From Phenylobacterium kunshanense (GTDB taxonomy: Bacteria; Pseudomonadota; Alphaproteobacteria; Caulobacterales; Caulobacteraceae): a stretch of 64,000 nucleotides of DNA. A model generated the notes under the pieces. That model was not told the DNA's origin, did no database searches, and saw only the letters and a program-made list of their open reading frames with translations. The stretch lies in the NCBI RefSeq assembly GCF_003254525.1, contig NZ_QFYS01000002.1:496001-560000 (forward strand), given 5' to 3'. How positions within the stretch are numbered: the stretch's first letter is position 1; each line of letters starts with the position of its first letter. This document shows positions 21,029-61,359 of the stretch, one piece after another. The translations under genes were made by a program, and so were the position numbers.

Positions 21029-22401
<1,373 letters not shown>

Positions 22402-22405
<4 letters not shown>

Positions 22406-23238
22406 AGCACGATCCCCGCATCACGCCCTGGCGCGACGGGATCGCGGCCCGCAGCCTGGAAGGGGTGCTGGAGGCCGAGGTCTATCTCGATCCCAAGGCC
22501 ATGAGCTGCATGGCCCCGGCCGCGGCGCTCCGCGCCGGCCCGGACGGCAACGCCGAGCAGATGGACCAGGTCCTGTTCGGCGAGCGGTTCGAGGTGCTGG
22601 AGGAAGAGGGCGCGTGGGTGTTCGGCCAGGCCGCCCGCGACGGCTACGTCGGCTTCGTGGAGGCCGCGACGCTGCAGCCCGCCGGCGCCATGCCGACCCA
22701 CCGGGTTTCCGCCCTCCGGACCTATGCGTTCGCCGAGGCCAGCATCAAGACGCGTGCCTCGGGCCCCTATTCGATCAACAGCCTGGTGACGGTCGAGGCC
22801 GTCGAGGGGCGCCTCGCCAAGGTGACGGGTGCGGGCTGGATGGCGGCCGATCACCTCTCGCCGATCGGCCTGTTCGAAGACGACTGGGCGGCGGTGGCCG
22901 AGCGGTTCGTGGGCGCGCCGTACCTGTGGGGCGGCCGCGAGAGCCTGGGCCTGGACTGTTCGGGACTGGTGCAGCAGGCCTTGTTCGCCTGCGGTCGGGC
23001 CTGTCCCCGCGACACCGACCAGCAGCAGGCGCTGGGCGCGCCGATCGTCGCGGACGACTTCCGGCGTGGCGACCTGGTGTTCTGGAAGGGCCACGTGGCC
23101 CTGGGCGTCGGCGAGGGACGCATCGTCCACGCCAACGGCCATCACATGGCGACGGTGGTCGAGCCGCTGGCCGAGGCGGTCGACCGGATTCGCGCAGCCG
23201 GCGCCGGCGAGCCCACGGCCTTCCGCCGCCCTGACTGA
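22402..23238 (+). CDS. NlpC/P60 family peptidase with N-terminal SH3-like domains
   Basis: 278 residues from the ATG at 22402, which overlaps the aminopeptidase stop. The N-terminal part (about 35-150) contains bacterial SH3-like repeats (LFGERFEVLEEEGAWVFGQA). The C-terminal NlpC/P60 cysteine-peptidase domain has the nucleophile in SLGLDCSGLVQQAL near 182, then GDLVFWKGHVALGVG with the catalytic His and HANGHHMATVV with the third residue. No signal peptide. This arrangement and the coupling to an M17 aminopeptidase resemble peptidoglycan-peptide recycling enzymes (gamma-D-glutamyl-diamino-acid endopeptidase type), so a cytoplasmic murein-peptide recycling role is likely. Confidence 0.9.
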
Positions 23239-23246
23239 CCCCTGAA

Positions 23247-23280
23247 ACGAAAATGGCCGGGACATCGCCCGGCCATCTCC
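23247..23280 (-). terminator. Terminator of the cytochrome c gene, between convergent genes
   Basis: A 9-bp perfect stem (23253-23261 with 23268-23276). Read on the minus strand it is followed by TTTCGTTT, so it mainly serves the cytochrome gene but may also stop the NlpC/P60 transcript. Confidence 0.75.
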
Positions 23281-23299: not shown

Positions 23300-24028
23300 T
23301 CAGCCCTTGGGGGCCGGCGCCGACTTCTGCGCGGGAGCCGCGGCCGCCGCCGGAGCGGCTTCGCCCTGGCCCGCGGCGCCCTGGGTGGCCGGCGCCGCAT
23401 CGGCCGCGGCCGGAGCGCCTTCCGCCGCCGGAGCCGCAGCGTCGCCCGCGGCCGGAGCCGCCGCCGCGCCGGGCTGGCGGGCCGGATCCGGAGCCGGCAC
23501 GGGCAGCTTGCCGCCCTTGCTGCTGAGGTAGGCGATCACGGCGACCCGCTCTTCCTGCTTCTTCAGGCCGACGAAGGTCATCTTGGTGCCGGCGACGTGC
23601 TTCTGCGGCGCCTTCAGGAAGGCGTCGAGCTCATCGTAGGTCCAGACCGGCGCAGCGCCCGCGTGGGCGGTCATGGCCGGCGAATAGGCGAAGCCCGCAT
23701 GCGCGGCTGGCTTGGCGCCGACGACGCCGAACAGGTTCGGACCGGTGCCGTTGGCGCCGCCCTGGTCCACCGTGTGGCAGGACTTGCACTTGGCGAAGGC
23801 CGCTTCGCCCGCCGCCACGTCGGCGACCGGCAGCAGCGTGCCCCAATCCGGCGGCAGCTCGACCGCCCCGCCGCCCGCGCCGCCCTCTTCGGCGACTTCG
23901 ACGGCGTAGCCCGCCTTTTCCGGCTGCTCGGGCGCGAACACGCCCGCGCTGAGTTCACGAAGGCCGACGATGGCCAGGCCGGTCGCCAGCACCGCGCCGG
24001 CGATCTTGTTGAACGTCAGGTCGCTCAT
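23300..24028 (-). CDS. Membrane-anchored class I cytochrome c
   Basis: 242 residues. An uncleaved N-terminal helix (FNKIAGAVLATGLAIVGLREL) anchors a periplasmic cytochrome domain at about 65-170. The haem is attached at CKSCH and the axial methionine is in TKMTFVGL; the order matches the CycM / cytochrome c552 type that passes electrons from the bc1 complex to the terminal oxidase. The last 65 residues are a low-complexity Ala/Pro/Gly tail (PAAEGAPAAADAAPATQ), unusual for this family and possibly a flexible spacer. The gene is divergent from kdsB. Confidence 0.88.
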   Translation of the reverse strand: MSDLTFNKIAGAVLATGLAIVGLRELSAGVFAPEQPEKAGYAVEVAEEGGAGGGAVELPPDWGTLLPVADVAAGEAAFAKCKSCHTVDQGGANGTGPNLFGVVGAKPAAHAGFAYSPAMTAHAGAAPVWTYDELDAFLKAPQKHVAGTKMTFVGLKKQEERVAVIAYLSSKGGKLPVPAPDPARQPGAAAAPAAGDAAAPAAEGAPAAADAAPATQGAAGQGEAAPAAAAAPAQKSAPAPKG

Positions 24029-54334: not shown

Positions 54335-55909
54335 GTGCGTCGCGCCCGCGGGTATGCGCCGGCGACCGCGCTGCTGGCCGGCCTCGCCGCGGGGCTCGCC
54401 CATCCGCCGTTCGGCCTGATCCTGGGCCTGTTGGGCTATGCGGTGCTGCTGCTGCGGCTGGAGACCATCCAGGGCGAGCGGCCGCTGCGGTCGGCGTTCG
54501 GGCTCGGCTGGCTGGCAGGGCTGGGCTATTTCGGCCTTTCCACATGGTGGATCGCCGAGCCGTTCCTCGTGGAGCCCGAGATCCACGGCTGGATGGCGCC
54601 CTTCGCCGTCGTCCTGATGGGCGGAGGCCTCGCGCTGTTCTGGGGCGCCGCTGGCCTCGCCTATCGGGCGTTGAGGCCCCGCAGCGCCTGGAAGCCGCTG
54701 GTCTTCGCCGGGGTCTTCGCCGCCGCCGAGTGGCTGCGCGGCCACATCCTCACGGGCTTTCCCTGGAACCTGGTCGGCGAGAGCTGGCGGGCCGGCAGTC
54801 CGCCATCGCAGGCCGCCGCCCTCGTGGGCGCCTATGGCCTGACCTGGATCACTCTGGCGCTGGCCTCGGCGCCGGCCTTGCTCATGCTGCCTGTCCGCCG
54901 GCTGGCCCAGGCGGGGGTGATGGTCGCGACGGGCATCGCGCTGACGGCGCTCTATGCCGGCGGCGCGGGCCGGCTGGCGGCCGCGCCGCGGCCTCTCTAC
55001 GCCCCGGACGCGCCTGTGCTCCGCATCGTCCAGGCGAACATCGACCAGAAGGAGAAATGGAAGCCGGAGAACCTGGGCCTCGTCTTCGACGCCTATCTGG
55101 GGCTTTCCGTCCGGCCGGCGGCCCGGGCGCCGGACGTGGTGATCTGGCCCGAAGGCGCGCTGCCGGCGGTGATCGACGACCTGATCGCGCCGGGCTCGCC
55201 GTACGCGACGCGCCTGCGCGACGCCGTCCGTCCCGGCCAGTCGCTGCTGATGGGCGCCAACCGGGCCGAGCCCGATGGGCAGGGTGGCTACCGCTACTTC
55301 AACACCCTGGTGGCGTTCCGGCGCGAGGACATGGCCCTGCGGGTCACCGGCGTCTACGACAAGCACCGGCTGGTGCCGTTCGGCGAGTTCCTGCCGCTGG
55401 GCGACCTGGCCGGTAAGCTGGGAATCCGCGCCCTGGTGCATATGCCCGAGGATTTCACCCCGGGCCCGCCGCCGCGCCCGCTGACGAGCGCAGGCATGCC
55501 GCCGTTGCAGGCGTTGATCTGCTATGAGGCGCTGTTCCCGGGCTTCGGCCGCAACGGAGCGCGGCCCGCCTGGCTGCTCAACGTGTCGAACGACGCCTGG
55601 TTCGGCCGCACCAGCGGGCCCTGGCAGCATCTCAACATCGCCAGCTACCGGGCCATCGAGCAAGGCCTGCCCATGGTCCGCGCCACCCCGACGGGCGTCT
55701 CGGCGGTGATCGATCCGCAGGGCCGCATCCTGCCCGGCAAGCGCCTCGGCCTGGGCGAGTTCGGGGTGATCGACGCCCGACTTCCGTCGCCCGCAGCGCC
55801 GACGCCATACAGCCGCTGGGGCGAAGGGCCGTTCGCGGGCCTGCTGCTGCTGTCGGCCGGAGCCTGGATCGCGGGCCGCCGGCGTCGCCAGCGCGGCGAA
55901 CCCGGCTGA
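54335..55909 (+). CDS. lnt: Apolipoprotein N-acyltransferase
   Basis: 524 residues from a GTG directly after the corC stop. Adds the third acyl chain to lipoproteins in the inner membrane. Six to seven N-terminal helices (1-215) are followed by a nitrilase domain with the catalytic Glu in VVIWPEGALPAVID, the Lys in YDKHRLVPFGEFLP and the Cys in QALICYEALFPGF. A last helix and Arg-rich tail end the protein. It follows corC as in most alphaproteobacteria. Ninety bases separate it from metK, containing the metK promoter and operator. Confidence 0.95.
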   Translation: MRRARGYAPATALLAGLAAGLAHPPFGLILGLLGYAVLLLRLETIQGERPLRSAFGLGWLAGLGYFGLSTWWIAEPFLVEPEIHGWMAPFAVVLMGGGLALFWGAAGLAYRALRPRSAWKPLVFAGVFAAAEWLRGHILTGFPWNLVGESWRAGSPPSQAAALVGAYGLTWITLALASAPALLMLPVRRLAQAGVMVATGIALTALYAGGAGRLAAAPRPLYAPDAPVLRIVQANIDQKEKWKPENLGLVFDAYLGLSVRPAARAPDVVIWPEGALPAVIDDLIAPGSPYATRLRDAVRPGQSLLMGANRAEPDGQGGYRYFNTLVAFRREDMALRVTGVYDKHRLVPFGEFLPLGDLAGKLGIRALVHMPEDFTPGPPPRPLTSAGMPPLQALICYEALFPGFGRNGARPAWLLNVSNDAWFGRTSGPWQHLNIASYRAIEQGLPMVRATPTGVSAVIDPQGRILPGKRLGLGEFGVIDARLPSPAAPTPYSRWGEGPFAGLLLLSAGAWIAGRRRRQRGEPG

Positions 55910-55915
55910 CGCGGC

Positions 55916-55944
55916 TTGGCATCATATAAAGATTTCTTTATAGG
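55916..55944 (+). promoter_or_regulatory. metK promoter
   Basis: TTGGCA at 55916-55921, a 17-base spacer and TATAGG at 55939-55944. The spacer is filled by the palindrome described separately. The leader would be about 48 bases. Confidence 0.6.
55925..55942. promoter_or_regulatory. Candidate repressor operator in the metK promoter
   Basis: TATAAAG-ATTT-CTTTATA is a perfect 7-bp inverted repeat, in an otherwise GC-rich gap, lying exactly between the -35 and -10. ArsR-family SahR repressors are known to control metK and SAM-cycle genes in many proteobacteria through AT-rich palindromes of this kind; the assignment to SahR is by analogy. No SahR gene is in the window. Confidence 0.6.
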
Positions 55945-55998
55945 CTGGCCCGCAGATTGCAGGCCGCCGCGCCCATCGACCCATTTCGGAGCCCTGTC

Positions 55999-57219
55999 TT
56001 GAGCCGTTCCAGCTACATCTTCACCAGCGAAAGCGTGTCCGAAGGCCATCCCGACAAGGTCGCCGACCGGATTTCGGACACCGTCGTCGACGCCTTCCTC
56101 AGCGCCGAACCGCAGGCCCGCGTGGCGTGCGAGACCCTGGTGACGACCAACCGCATCGTCCTCGCCGGCGAAGTGCGCGCCGGCAAGCCGGGCGCCTCCA
56201 AGGCCGAGAACAAGGCGATGACCAAGGACATCGTCCGCTCGCTCGAGCCCAAGGTCCGCGAGGCGATCAAGGACATCGGCTACGAGCAGAAGGGCTTCCA
56301 CTGGGCCAAGGCCAAGTACGCCTGCCACCTGCACGAACAGTCGGCCCATATCGCCCAGGGCGTCGACGCCACGGACAAGAAGGACGAAGGCGCCGGCGAC
56401 CAGGGCATCATGTTCGGCTACGCCTGCGACGAGACGCCGGAGTTCATGCCGGCGACGCTGCAGTATTCGCACAATATCCTGAAGCGCCTGGCCGACGCGC
56501 GCCACTCGGGCGAATGCCCGGTGCTGGAGCCTGACGCCAAGAGCCAGGTCACGATCCGCTACGAGAACGGCCAGCCGGTCGAGATCCTGAAGATCGTCGT
56601 CTCGCACCAGCACAAGAAGCGCATCGGCCTGCAGACGGTGAACTCCAAGCGTCTCCAGGGCGTGATCCAGCCGCTGATCGAGCAGGTCATCCCGGCCGGC
56701 CTGATCACCAAGAAGACCAAGTGGCTGGTGAACCCGACGGGCCGCTTCGAGATCGGCGGTCCGGACGGCGACGCCGGCCTCACCGGCCGCAAGATCATCG
56801 TCGACACCTACGGCGGCGCGGCTCCGCACGGCGGCGGCGCGTTCTCGGGCAAGGACCCGACGAAGGTCGACCGCTCGGCCGCCTACGCCTGCCGCTACCT
56901 GGCCAAGAACGTGGTCGCCGCGGGCCTGGCCAAGAAGTGCACGATCCAGATCAGCTACGCGATCGGCGTGGCCGAGCCGCTGTCGTTCTACGTGGACACC
57001 CACGGCACGGGCGAGATCGATCCGGCCAAGCTGGAACTGGCCCTGCCCGAGATGATCGGCGGCGCCACGCCCCGCGCGATCCGCGAGCACCTGCAGCTCA
57101 ACCGCCCGATCTACGCCCGCACCGCGGCCTACGGCCACTTCGGCCGCCAGCCCGACAACGAGGGCGGCTTCTCGTGGGAGCGGACCGACCTGGCCGACGA
57201 GCTGCGCAAGCTGGCCTGA
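55999..57219 (+). CDS. metK: S-adenosylmethionine synthetase
   Basis: 406 residues from a TTG at 55999 ([20 protein letters not shown]); an upstream TTG adds 14 residues with no family match. Makes SAM from methionine and ATP. The ATP motif is [14 protein letters not shown] near 13-26, the [13 protein letters not shown] block follows near 131, and [19 protein letters not shown] is the P-loop-like motif. It carries the inserted block [20 protein letters not shown], typical of alphaproteobacterial MetK. A palindromic operator sits in the promoter. Followed by a folded intergenic element and trmB. Confidence 0.96.
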
Positions 57220-57226
57220 TCCGATC

Positions 57227-57301
57227 GAACGTCATCCCCGGGGCTATCCCGGGCCTCTATGGACGCCGGCGCCTGGCATCAGTGCGCCGGCGTTGACGTT
57301 C
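57227..57301 (+). repeat. Three-way-junction palindromic element between metK and trmB
   Basis: An 8-bp outer helix (57227-57234 with 57294-57301) encloses two hairpins. The first pairs CCCGGG 57237-57242 with 57248-57253. The second is a 10-bp perfect stem (57263-57272 with 57284-57293) capped by a 3-bp extension, CTG-GCAT-CAG. It may be a structured RNA in the metK-trmB transcript or a REP-type mobile palindrome; the GTCATCCCCGGG part resembles dispersed repeats of related genomes. No coding frame fits. Confidence 0.65.
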
Positions 57302-57326
57302 AGGTTGCCCCCGGGACATTGAGCGA

Positions 57327-58001
57327 ATGACCGAACAGCATCCCCCGCTGCGCTCCTTCGGACGGCTGAAGTCGCGGCCGATCAAGCCACGCCAGGCCGC
57401 GCTGATGGAAACCCGCCTGCCGGAGCTGCGCGTGCCCCCCGGCCCCGCGGAGCCCGCGGTCCTGATGCCGGGCGCGCGCGAGACCTGGCTGGAGATCGGC
57501 TTTGGCGGCGGCGAACACATGGCGGCCCAGGCCGGACGCCACCCCGATGTCCTGATCCTCGGCGCCGAGCCCTTCACCAACGGCGTCGCCAGCGCCGTGC
57601 GGCATGTGGACGAACAGGGCCTCGGCAACGTGAGAATCCACGACGGCGACGTGCGCGAGCTGATCGCCCGCCTGCCGGACGCGAGCATCGCCCGCGTGTT
57701 CATCCTCTTCCCCGACCCCTGGCCCAAGGCGCGGCATCACAAGCGCCGCCTGGTGCAGGCCGACACGGTGGCCGAGCTGGCGCGCGTGCTGAAGCCCGGC
57801 GGGGCCCTGCGCTTCGCCAGCGACTGGGCGGACTATGTGGACTGGGCGCTGGAGCGGATCACGGCGAACCCCGCGTTCCGATGGACGGCGGGCCGCGCGG
57901 ACGACTGGCGCATACCGCCCGCCGACCACGTCACCACGCGCTACGAGGAAAAGCGGCTGGGCGACTGCGCGCCCGTGTTCCTGGATTTCGTGAGGGCGTA
58001 G
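57327..58001 (+). CDS. trmB: tRNA (guanine-N7-)-methyltransferase
   Basis: 224 residues. Makes m7G46 in tRNA with SAM. The SAM loop is WLEIGFGGGEHMAAQ near residues 53-67, and FILFPDPWPKARHHKRRLVQ is the diagnostic catalytic and tRNA-binding stretch. The C-terminal TRYEEKRL completes the signature. It sits directly downstream of metK, which supplies its cofactor, a conserved order in alphaproteobacteria. The gene is convergent to ppa, with 28 bases between stops. Confidence 0.96.
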   Translation: MTEQHPPLRSFGRLKSRPIKPRQAALMETRLPELRVPPGPAEPAVLMPGARETWLEIGFGGGEHMAAQAGRHPDVLILGAEPFTNGVASAVRHVDEQGLGNVRIHDGDVRELIARLPDASIARVFILFPDPWPKARHHKRRLVQADTVAELARVLKPGGALRFASDWADYVDWALERITANPAFRWTAGRADDWRIPPADHVTTRYEEKRLGDCAPVFLDFVRA

Positions 58002-58029
58002 CTCCCCCGGGCGGGGGAGCTACTTCTCG

Positions 58030-58566
58030 TCAGGCGCCCTTGGCCTGGTAGCGCTCGATCGACTCCTTGATCAGCTCGGCGGCCTCGGCGGCGTCGGCCC
58101 AGCGAACGATCTCGACCGACTTGCCCTTCTCCAGGTCCTTGTAGTGCTTGAAGAAGTGGGCGATCTGCTCGGTCAGGATGGCCGGCAGCGAGCGCCAGGA
58201 ATCCACGCCCACGTAGAACGGGTGCAGCTTGTCCACCGGCACGGCCAGGATCTTCTCGTCGCCGCCGGCCTCGTCGCGCATGATCAGCGCGCCGACCGGA
58301 CGGGCGCGGATGATCGCGCCGGGCACCACCGGGGTCGGACCCACCACGATGATGTCCATCGGGTCGCCGTCGTCCGCCAGGGTGTGCGGGATGAAGCCGT
58401 AGTTGCCGGGATAGAACATCGCCGTGTGCAGGAAGCGGTCGACGAAGATCGCGCCGGACTCCTTGTCCAGCTCGTACTTCACCGGCTCGCCGCCCTGCGG
58501 GATCTCGATGACGGCGTTCACGTCGTACGGCGGGTTCTCGCCGACGGGGATCTTGGAGAGGTCCAT
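58030..58566 (-). CDS. ppa: Inorganic pyrophosphatase (family I)
   Basis: 178 residues from the ATG at 58566 (MDLSKIPVGENPP); a longer frame upstream has no similarity. Hydrolyses pyrophosphate and drives biosynthesis. The family I signature DDGDPMDIIVV with three metal aspartates is present, preceded by MFYPGNYGFIPHTLAD. Length and content match the hexameric bacterial enzyme. It is divergent from the DUF2946/TonB receptor unit, with 184 bases between starts; this region has no recognisable gene. Confidence 0.96.
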   Translation of the reverse strand: MDLSKIPVGENPPYDVNAVIEIPQGGEPVKYELDKESGAIFVDRFLHTAMFYPGNYGFIPHTLADDGDPMDIIVVGPTPVVPGAIIRARPVGALIMRDEAGGDEKILAVPVDKLHPFYVGVDSWRSLPAILTEQIAHFFKHYKDLEKGKSVEIVRWADAAEAAELIKESIERYQAKGA

Positions 58567-58750
58567 GGGGAGGAGGCCTTTCGAAGCACACACAAATTCA
58601 GGGCCGCTCTCTGGACCAAAGCCCCGCTGAGGGAAAGAGCACGGGCGGGGTCCGAGCCCCAAAACCTGTCTCGGCGGGGAATTTCCGGACCCCCGCGCCA
58701 TTTGTCGCGCCTCAAAGACACGCCGCCCGATGTGGGCTAGGAGCGCGACC

Positions 58751-59155
58751 GTGACCGTCGCCGCCCGTCATCGAGGGACTTCCCTCCACAGCGCATGGCT
58801 CGCCCTCGCTGCGATCGCCGTGATGCTGCGGGTGCTGGTTCCGCCGGGCTTCATGGTGGGCAAGCCGACGGACGAGACGCCGTTCGCCCTGGTGCTCTGC
58901 ACGGCGCAGGGCATGGTCACGGTCCCGGCGGAAGCCCCGCCGTCGGGCGACACGGATGGCGTGGCGGCCGACAGCGCGCCGTGCGCCTTCTCCGCCACGG
59001 CGCAACTGGCCACGCCCCCGTCGGTCGAGCTCATCCCGCAGACTTTCGCGCGCGTCGCGCCAGCCGCGCCCGACCGCGCGGTCCATCTGGCGCCCGGGCG
59101 TGGCCTCGCGGCCCCGCCGCCGCCCGCCCGCGGCCCGCCCATCCTGCTGATCTGA
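58751..59155 (+). CDS. DUF2946 family protein, probable copper-related
   Basis: 134 residues from the GTG at 58751, chosen because AGGAG lies seven bases upstream; an ATG at 58730 is possible. A hydrophobic N-terminal helix (SAWLALAAIAVMLRVLVPPGFM) is followed by the family pattern of the mature part (FALVLCTAQGMVTVPAE, then a Pro/Ala-rich stretch with SAPCAFSATA). DUF2946 has no proven function but often neighbours copper-type TonB receptors, as here (110 bases upstream of one). Two cysteines (LVLC and APC) might bind metal. It ends in a Pro-rich tail. Confidence 0.75.
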   Translation: MTVAARHRGTSLHSAWLALAAIAVMLRVLVPPGFMVGKPTDETPFALVLCTAQGMVTVPAEAPPSGDTDGVAADSAPCAFSATAQLATPPSVELIPQTFARVAPAAPDRAVHLAPGRGLAAPPPPARGPPILLI

Positions 59156-59265
59156 CGCCCGCGCCTCGGCGCGCGGCTGCGCATGGGATCGCGACACCCC
59201 GCGGTCCTTCCCCTCCAGACAGCATGAAACGGCGCCCCGACCGGCGCGCCGGGGATCATACCGCC

Positions 59266-61359
59266 ATGAAACTTCGCCTTCTTGCCTCGGGCGCCGCCCT
59301 GGCGCTCGGCGCCTTCCCCATGACCGCCCTCGCCGATGAGGCCGCCGACCCCCTCGTGGACGTGATCGTGGTGACCGCGCCGCGGGGTCCGGCCGTCACC
59401 ACCACCAGCGAGCGCCTGGAGCCGACCGCGCTGGCCGGTCCCGATCCCACCGCGCTGCTGGCCCGCGTGCCGGGCGGCGCCCGGATCGGCAACGGCGCCC
59501 TTTCGGGCCAGGCCCAGTATCGCGGCCTGTTCGGCCATCGCCTGAACCTGCGGGTCGACGGCCAGCGGTTCGCCTCGGGTGGACCGAACCTCATGGATCC
59601 GCCGTTCCACTATGCGCCGACGGCCCTGGTCGCGGCCCTTGAGGTGGATCGCGGCGTCAGCCCCGTGCGCGCCGGCCCGGGCCTGGCCGGCGGCATGAAC
59701 GCGGTCTTCAAGCGCCTGGACTTCGCCGATGGGCCCGAAGCCCGGCTGGGCTACGACCTGTCGGCCGAGGCCCGTTCGGCCGACGACAGCTACTCGGCGG
59801 GCGGCGTCGCCGGCCTCGCCACGGAGAGCTGGCGCGTCAACCTGCTCGGCTCCTACGAGAAGGGCGAAGACGCCGAGTTCCCGGGCGGGACGATCCGTGG
59901 CTCGCGGTACGAGCGCAGCGTCTATGGCATATCGGCGGGCCTCCGGGCTGGCCCTCACGAGCTGGCGCTGGACCTTCGCCACCAGCACACGGACCCTACC
60001 GGCAATCCGCCGTTCCCGATGGATATCCGCTATTTCAGCACCGATTTCGCCCGCCTCGGCTACCGGGCGGAGCTGGGCGGGATCGGCCTGGAGGCGGCGT
60101 TCAGCTACGCCGACGTGGGCCACGGCATGAACAACTTCGACCTGCGGCCTTCGCCCACGGCCATGAACCGCCGGGAGTCGCTGGCCGAGGCCGTGACCCG
60201 CGCCGCGGAGGTCGCGGCCACCGCGCCGCTGGCCGGCGGCAAGCTTCGCGTGGGGCTCGATGCGGAAGACCTCGACCGCAACGTGGTCATCACCAATCCC
60301 GCGAACCCGGCCTTCCTGGTGACCAGCCTGCCCGACGTCGAGACGCGCCGCGCGGGCGCCCATGCGGAGTGGACGGGGCCGGTCGGGGCGCTCCACGGCG
60401 AGTTCGGCATGCGGATCGACCGGCACGAGGCGGAGGCCGGACGCGCGGTCCTGGGCCCCGCGCTCGCCGCCGGCCCGGTCGCGCTGGCCGCCGCGTTCAA
60501 CGCCGCCGACCGCAGCCGCGAGGACACGACCGTCGATGCGGTGGCGCGGCTCTGGACGGCGCCCCGGAAGGGGCTCGCCTGGCGCCTCACCCTGGCGCGC
60601 AAGACCCGGGTCGCAGGCTATGTGGAGCGGTACGGCTGGCTGCCGACCAACACCAGCGGCGGCCTTGCCGACGGCAACATCTACGTCGGCGACATGAACC
60701 TCGAGCCGGAGGTGGCCTGGATCGCCGAGGTCGGCTTCGACTACGCCGGCCGGCGGGCGTACCTGCGGCCCACGGTCTTCGTGCGCGAGGTCGACAACTA
60801 CATCCAGGGCGCGCCATTCGATGCGACCCCGGGCGTTGCGGATACGCTGCAGGAACGGGTGGCGGCCATGAGCGGGGATCCCACGCCGCTGCGGTTCGCC
60901 AACGTCGATGCCAGGCTCTATGGCTTCGATGTGGCGGGGGGCGTGAAGCTGTCAGCCGCCTGGCGGATCGACGCGGTGGCGTCCTACGTCCGCGGCGAAC
61001 GGCGGGACGTTCCCGACGATCTCTACCGGATTTCGCCGCCCAGCCTGACGGCGGCGCTGACCTACGACGCCGACCGCTGGTCCGTCACGGCGGAAACGCG
61101 CCTGGTGGCCGACCAGTCGAAGGTGTCCCGGACCAATTCGGAACGGCGCACGGGCGGCTACGGGCTTCTGGCGCTCTACGGCGACTGGAAGGTGCGCGAG
61201 GGCGTGCGGGTGTCGGCCGGCGTGGAGAACCTGCTGGACCGCCGCTACTCGGACCACCTGGCCGGCTACAACCAGATCGACGGCTCGGACGTGCCGCTCG
61301 GCGCCCGGCTGCCGGGGATCGGCCGCAGCGCCTTCGTCCGCGTGTCGCTGGCGCGGTAG
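59266..61359 (+). CDS. TonB-dependent receptor, copper (OprC/NosA) type
   Basis: 697 residues from the ATG at 59266, which opens a signal peptide (KLRLLASGAALALGAFPMTALA). An outer-membrane 22-strand barrel with N-terminal plug. The TonB box is probably VDVIVVTAP; the plug continues through LLARVPGGARIGNGALSGQAQYRGLFG. The segment TNTSGGLADGNIYVGDMNLEPE and the closing LPGIGRSAFVRVSLAR resemble OprC/NosA copper receptors. Coupled by position to the DUF2946 gene. No Fur or Zur box is visible upstream. The copper assignment rests on resemblance and context. Confidence 0.85.
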   Translation: MKLRLLASGAALALGAFPMTALADEAADPLVDVIVVTAPRGPAVTTTSERLEPTALAGPDPTALLARVPGGARIGNGALSGQAQYRGLFGHRLNLRVDGQRFASGGPNLMDPPFHYAPTALVAALEVDRGVSPVRAGPGLAGGMNAVFKRLDFADGPEARLGYDLSAEARSADDSYSAGGVAGLATESWRVNLLGSYEKGEDAEFPGGTIRGSRYERSVYGISAGLRAGPHELALDLRHQHTDPTGNPPFPMDIRYFSTDFARLGYRAELGGIGLEAAFSYADVGHGMNNFDLRPSPTAMNRRESLAEAVTRAAEVAATAPLAGGKLRVGLDAEDLDRNVVITNPANPAFLVTSLPDVETRRAGAHAEWTGPVGALHGEFGMRIDRHEAEAGRAVLGPALAAGPVALAAAFNAADRSREDTTVDAVARLWTAPRKGLAWRLTLARKTRVAGYVERYGWLPTNTSGGLADGNIYVGDMNLEPEVAWIAEVGFDYAGRRAYLRPTVFVREVDNYIQGAPFDATPGVADTLQERVAAMSGDPTPLRFANVDARLYGFDVAGGVKLSAAWRIDAVASYVRGERRDVPDDLYRISPPSLTAALTYDADRWSVTAETRLVADQSKVSRTNSERRTGGYGLLALYGDWKVREGVRVSAGVENLLDRRYSDHLAGYNQIDGSDVPLGARLPGIGRSAFVRVSLAR

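Follow-up and report, generated by a model that had tools for sequence, protein, structure and literature searches.

The structured element between metK and trmB in Phenylobacterium kunshanense is very probably a worn-down member of a family of small, dispersed DNA palindromes, here called family A, and not an RNA that senses SAM. This reading rests on the intact family A copies found in the same gap of sister species, on the rank of the element in a family A profile search and on the mixed content of the gap across 56 gaps of the genus. The element is homologous to a family of repeats that is dispersed in related genomes, that is present or absent at two gaps according to the species, and whose stems carry paired changes. 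Moreover, these palindromes are linked, both physically and phylogenetically, to small standalone GIY-YIG nucleases. The window considered throughout is the whole 64-kb stretch of DNA analysed, and its genome is designated G000.

The element in the metK-trmB gap

Table 1. Coordinates of the metK-trmB element, its parts and the two flanking genes (positions in the window).
Feature	Position	Strand	Remarks
metK (methionine adenosyltransferase), putative TTG start	55999..57219	+	NCBIfam TIGR01034, 468 bits, cut-off 309
Eroded family A palindrome copy (very probable)	57227..57318	+	profile match 17.8 bits, E 1.6e-4, best of the 64-kb window
Left terminus; outer helix, 5' arm, GAACGTCA	57227..57234	+	pairs with 57294-57301
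Left side hairpin, CCCGGG/CCCGGG	57237..57253	+	arms 57237-57242 / 57248-57253
Central GC-rich hairpin, arms ACGCCGGCGC / GCGCCGGCGT	57263..57293	+	57263-57272 / 57284-57293 plus three inner pairs
Outer helix, 3' arm, TGACGTTC	57294..57301	+	placed by the profile at the inner-stem flank of family A
Degenerate right arm	57302..57325	+	CCGGGACA at 57311-57318 kept; remaining right side hairpin unrecognisable (compare L037, L188)
trmB (tRNA guanosine(46)-N7-methyltransferase)	57327..58001	+	NCBIfam TIGR00091, 135 bits, cut-off 113

The element was first described, by a sequence-only reading, as a 75-base three-way junction made of an outer 8-bp helix and two inner hairpins (6 and 10+3 bp), and all three helices are indeed in place (Table 1). 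The fold is better than that of shuffled sequences: the 75-mer 57227-57301 folds at -48.3 kcal/mol, whereas its shuffles average -28.8 (sd 3.1) and 0 of 500 are as low, and the segment 57217-57311 gives a z of -4.58, with none of 200 shuffles as low. Stability alone says little in a window so rich in GC, where 12 of 4262 tiled 75-mers are as stable as the element or more so. On the + strand no intrinsic terminator, that is, a GC hairpin followed by a T-run, was found between 55800 and 58700, and Rfam gave no match at E<=1 within 55000-60000.

The alignment of the element to the family A profile ends at 57318, beyond the right end at 57301 that had been assigned to it at first. The outer 8-bp helix may be a secondary pairing, because it joins the true left end of the element to a stretch that the profile assigns to the inner stem; alternatively, an internal deletion would have brought the true right end to this point (the right ends of L155 and L163 offer a comparison).

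Family A and its traces at the metK-trmB gap

Family A, as defined in this analysis, is about 105 bp long and consists of an outer stem (CGTCAT/ATGACG), two side hairpins and an inner stem. When the window was searched with a profile built from 17 copies, all of them outside metK, the stretch 57227-57318 ranked first (E 1.6e-4), followed by the reverse strand of the element itself (0.0047), the next place having an E of 0.53. The profile score of the element, 17.6 bits, compares with at most 5.4 in 2000 shuffles, none of which scored as high. The element retains its left end, the hairpin on the left, one in the centre and, of the right hairpin, CCGGGACA; the remainder has been lost, so that the complete architecture (outer stem, two side hairpins and inner stem) is not found, the right side hairpin being gone after CCGGGACA. 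It counts against the reading as a family A relic that the element is a partial and low-scoring member (17.8 bits), and its exact history is unreadable because the right arm has nearly disappeared.

Within the family, the terminus CGTCA, the counterpart of the element's left end, shows no variation among the 16 dispersed copies, and the helix matching the left side hairpin has changed on both sides in three of its seven pairs. In the alignment of these 16 copies 96.8% of the stem cells are paired and 6 of the 27 pairs are altered on both sides, values reached in each case by 0 of 500 shuffles; of the five measures of covariation, one (further pair types) was matched by 20 of the 500.

The gap copy of G046, used as a query, gave 18 matches in G046, 67 in G032 and 29 in G002 at E<=1e-5, in counts where a palindrome can score on both strands. 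A covariance model detected family A (E<=1e-8) in 34 of the 45 genomes of the genus that were scanned; the counts per genome rest on up to 88 scored candidates, on stricter filters and on palindromes counted on both strands. In plasmids no family A match was found at E<=1e-10. The homologous dispersed copies support the second possibility raised at first, that of a mobile palindrome whose GTCATCCCCGGG part recurs in dispersed repeats of related genomes. On one contig each of two genomes (G002:C223 and G111:C64) family A copies recur every ~1.35-1.38 kb, possibly as a tandem array. In the window itself, an isolated hairpin at 23253-23276, ATGGCCGGGACATCGCCCGGCCAT, is similar to one half of family A (E 0.53). 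It shares bases with a 92-aa ORF, is framed by longer ORFs at 22162-23238 (+) and 23300-24028 (-), and is perhaps just a gene-end hairpin.

The genome-wide copy search that had been suggested for telling a mobile repeat from a local RNA left the 75-mer single-copy in its own genome, while the dispersal became visible only through the relatives. In fact, the exact 75-mer occurs once in the 4.18 Mb of G000, and because its other 28 places were short and weak matches (14-33 bases, E 0.078 or worse, mostly coding by eye), the 75-mer alone hides the nature of the repeat. With the covariance model family A has 0 matches in G000 at E<=1e-8 (up to 88 candidates scored), so many copies within the same genome are not found there, and at E<=1 a family A query returns short pieces only, such as L066. 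The same genome holds 78 GTCATCCCSG sites, as compared with 13 for the reversed control pattern, and a second palindrome, family B, represented among the loci read by 14 distinct copies of 155-160 bp. At E<=1e-8 family B gave 20 matches in G000, of which, among those listed, 15 or more are near full length (family B counts derive from up to 18 candidates scored per genome); in the window none was found at E<=1. Family B matches number at least 15 also in G012, G013, G022, G023 and G106, many of them as single arms; no B-flanked nuclease was found in these five genomes.

The metK-trmB gap was read in 56 same-genus genomes, where it ranges from an overlap to 1336 bp (50 gaps long enough to scan and 6 too short; G033 and G115, incomplete, were left out, and the 54-bp gap of G036 is outside the profile scan). 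Clear family A was identified in five of them (G027, G119, G046, G032 and G034) and weak family A in two, that of the window and that of G040. Family B is present in another five (G013, G010, G012, G041 and G058), of which G041 scores for A too and G058 is weak, and neither family was found by profile in the remaining 44. At E<0.01 the family A profile matches 8 of the 56 gaps, counting G041, which is shared with B. By eye, three of the 44 profile-negative gaps (G025, G110 and G111) have kept the central hairpin and the CGTTTC that follows it. The gap element is intact at ~105 bp in G046 and G119, and has a right arm with extra sequence in G032.

The gap of G032 is 171 bp long and holds family A; that of its sister G002 is 35 bp long and does not. 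On a tree of 38 species built from metK and trmB the three states of the gap (A, B or neither) are intermixed among close kin, and across the 56 gaps the structure is not conserved in the relatives. At a second gap family A is present in G032 and the spacer is unrelated, by eye, in G046, G052, G110 and G119; G002 gave no flank match. Neither a clean pre-insertion site nor a target-site duplication was recovered at the gaps compared; where A is absent, the spacer shows no relation in sequence. The gaps of G011, G037, G050, G051, G052 and G055 are of a common type of 380-394 bp in which, by eye, a small coding sequence takes the place of the palindrome.

Other explanations of the element

Domestication of the repeat, an outcome compatible with its origin as a family A relic, is conceivable but rather unlikely. 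The central hairpin would have been selected as an RNA element at the 3' end of metK, where, with the same limited probability, it might serve as a processing signal, for 3' protection or for the attenuation of trmB. A local RNA role of this hairpin is possible, though unproven, because 7 of the 14 species of the clade (G000, G032, G040, G046, G110, G111 and G119) still have a strong central hairpin in the gap; it is also found in G025, just outside that clade. Seven of these eight segments, all but that of G046, were folded and range from -24.8 to -33.6 kcal/mol, as compared with -5.5 in G027, which belongs to another clade. In 15 dispersed copies the values lie between -5.6 and -25.5, with a median of -12.7, the segments having been cut by eye and to unequal length (40-50 against 41-43 bases). 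When aligned, the eight sequences yield a consensus hairpin in which 93 of 104 cells are paired and 5 of 13 pairs have changed on both sides, a fold equalled by 0 of 300 column shuffles; they had, however, been chosen for having the hairpin. G110 and G111 have lost the side hairpins and retained the central one. Against this stand the other seven members of the clade (G002, G009, G012, G013, G045, G052 and G116), in which the central hairpin is missing: there is no spacer at all in G009, one of 35 bp in G002, family B in G012 and G013, longer unrelated spacers in G052 and G116, and a different hairpin in G045. The absence of a T-run terminator also counts against such a role. Palindromes can furthermore correct themselves by template switching, and in this way mimic selection.

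That the element is a GC-rich palindrome arisen by chance, unrelated to family A, is improbable. Such an origin would fit the 12 tiled 75-mers that fold as well and the lack of an A match at E<=1e-8 in the own genome, but a profile score reached by none of 2000 shuffles, a colinear match that spans 92 bases and the clear family A copies in the same gap of the clade members G046, G119 and G032 speak against it. Finally, the SAM- or SAH-responsive riboswitch specific to metK-trmB that the sequence-only reading had proposed, from a stable three-way junction lying between a SAM-making and a SAM-using gene, is hardly credible and was rejected on the gap comparison and on Rfam: no match is found at E<=1 in 55000-60000, the element was not found in most of the 56 same-genus gaps, the gap of close relatives being without it, occupied by another palindrome or filled by a longer spacer of unrelated sequence, and its own relatives occur at many other places.

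Standalone GIY-YIG nucleases beside the palindromes

Copies of both palindromes lie close to genes of small standalone GIY-YIG nucleases, which we take to be COG2827. In G000, a cluster of five family B copies flanks a GIY-YIG protein (G000:C33:112381-113689); around this gene (L118, G000:C33:112300-114000) adjacent family B copies are ~204 bp apart. Across the genus, family A or B lies within 500 nt of the domain at 26 of 57 standalone loci, as compared with 0 of 28 uvrC-like loci (Fisher 2.8e-6), five of the 26 scoring below 18 bits. An inverted repeat with arms of at least 11 bases accompanies 42 of the 57 and 4 of the 28 (Fisher 2.0e-7). The set of 57 leaves out L215 and ~22 weaker matches, namely 12 proteins of 247-345 aa that match profile positions 1-56 or less and 10 short, fragmentary or low-scoring frames. 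The 28 uvrC-like loci are a subset of the uvrC-length matches, with L204, L241 and L306 assigned by score despite shorter frames; uvrC is an imperfect control, since one of its flanks is mostly coding.

The association is also phylogenetic. In a tree of the GIY-YIG proteins, built on no more than 93 columns, a single clade (95/85) gathers all five nucleases that are firmly B-linked. Of the 18 A-linked nucleases, 17 (one by a partial match) fall within a group of 20 members (87/94), completed by one unlinked locus and two with a repeat below the A threshold; the remaining A-linked nuclease, L251, is outside it. With flank labels assigned by hand, the A/B label requires one change on the tree (n=22), as compared with at least 2 in shuffles, and the A/not-A label requires 5 changes (n=57), as compared with at least 12; in both cases 0 of 200 shuffles had as few. 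In the A/B test L202, which belongs to the B clade and has both B and A nearby, was labelled B; excluded from it were L209 (partial A), L221 (weak B) and the pair L217 and L227, whose weak B had been entered as another repeat. Other GIY-YIG clades (L196, L217, L221, L224, L227 and others) have inverted repeats of their own, some with perfect arms of 31-40 bases, whose similarity to A or B is weak or none.

The genome of the window has a B-linked nuclease, and no A-linked nuclease was found in it. The copy number of A is higher in genomes with an A-linked nuclease (13 vs 32 genomes; one-sided p 1e-4, with up to 88 candidates scored per genome). At least 30 A matches were counted in five genomes in which no A-linked nuclease was found (G018, G038, G044, G107 and G111); in three of these, G107 (65 matches), G111 (30) and G038 (30), the single GIY-YIG match is of uvrC length. 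The link between nuclease and palindrome is thus correlative. A link at the level of the whole class is unsupported: an inverted repeat accompanies 5 of the 19 standalone loci and 1 of the 10 uvrC-like ones (p 0.63), an excess that is not significant in this sample of 29 of 77 places, mostly the best of each genome. In other families of the class, two GIY-YIG genes (L282 and L288) lie beside palindromes of other sequence, of the TTCGACAGGCTCAGGGCGAAC and GTCATTGCGAGGA types.

REP and REPIN elements with their RAYT transposases are likewise dispersed palindromes in which a cognate nuclease gene adjoins copies of the same palindrome, the RAYT transposases being assumed to serve the REP sequences; in families A and B the adjoining gene is that of a GIY-YIG nuclease. 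The CerM-associated intergenic repeats (CIR) of Caulobacter are, like family A, dispersed structured alphaproteobacterial intergenic repeats of ~110 bp, and carry a conserved GANTC site (PMC2229807). This site, by contrast, occurs 0 times in window positions 57220-57326, in 3 of 16 A copies and in 0 of 14 B copies, and on this one ground the families are set apart. Repeats that are dispersed and structured are already known in Caulobacter, and taken by itself the element of the window is ordinary debris of a repeat. The MITE-like repeats (ERIC, RUP, Correia, RPE) share with A a size of 100-200 bp, long stem-loops and dispersal (PMC2229807); unlike them, A and B come without a demonstrated parent insertion sequence or target-site duplication, in a non-systematic look. 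In a 2007 review, the presumed transposase-driven movement of small dispersed palindromes is described as lacking experimental support (PMC2229807). As for the nucleases, a 2007 paper on repair genes of Caulobacter crescentus calls the role of three small COG2827 endonucleases unknown and favours DNA repair because one of them has an SOS box (PMC1839093). In searches of the open-licence literature no pairing of GIY-YIG nucleases with bacterial palindromic repeats was found, and the word "palindrom" is absent from PMC1564403.

From these observations a history of the element may be proposed. A family A copy would have arrived between metK and trmB in the ancestry of the clade, and the copy of the window would then have lost most of its right side hairpin. 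What remains would be repeat material at the DNA level, now probably transcribed, between two co-directional genes. The palindrome would be a passive mobile repeat, its candidate mover being a clade-matched GIY-YIG nuclease that may cut the folded palindrome; A copies would decay where the A-nuclease is missing, and the window copy would be dead because G000 is without an A-linked nuclease. More broadly, we put forward, as a plausible but tentative proposal, that the small standalone GIY-YIG nucleases and the palindromes may be one mobile system, in which each nuclease clade would recognise, cut and help to spread its own family; the metK-trmB element would be a fossil of a family whose nuclease G000 has lost.

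If clade-matched GIY-YIG nucleases do mobilise matched palindromes, this would give one testable answer both to how such palindromes move and to what COG2827 proteins do. The case also calls for caution, in that a stable, well-paired and even covarying structure between metabolic genes can be repeat debris and not a riboswitch.
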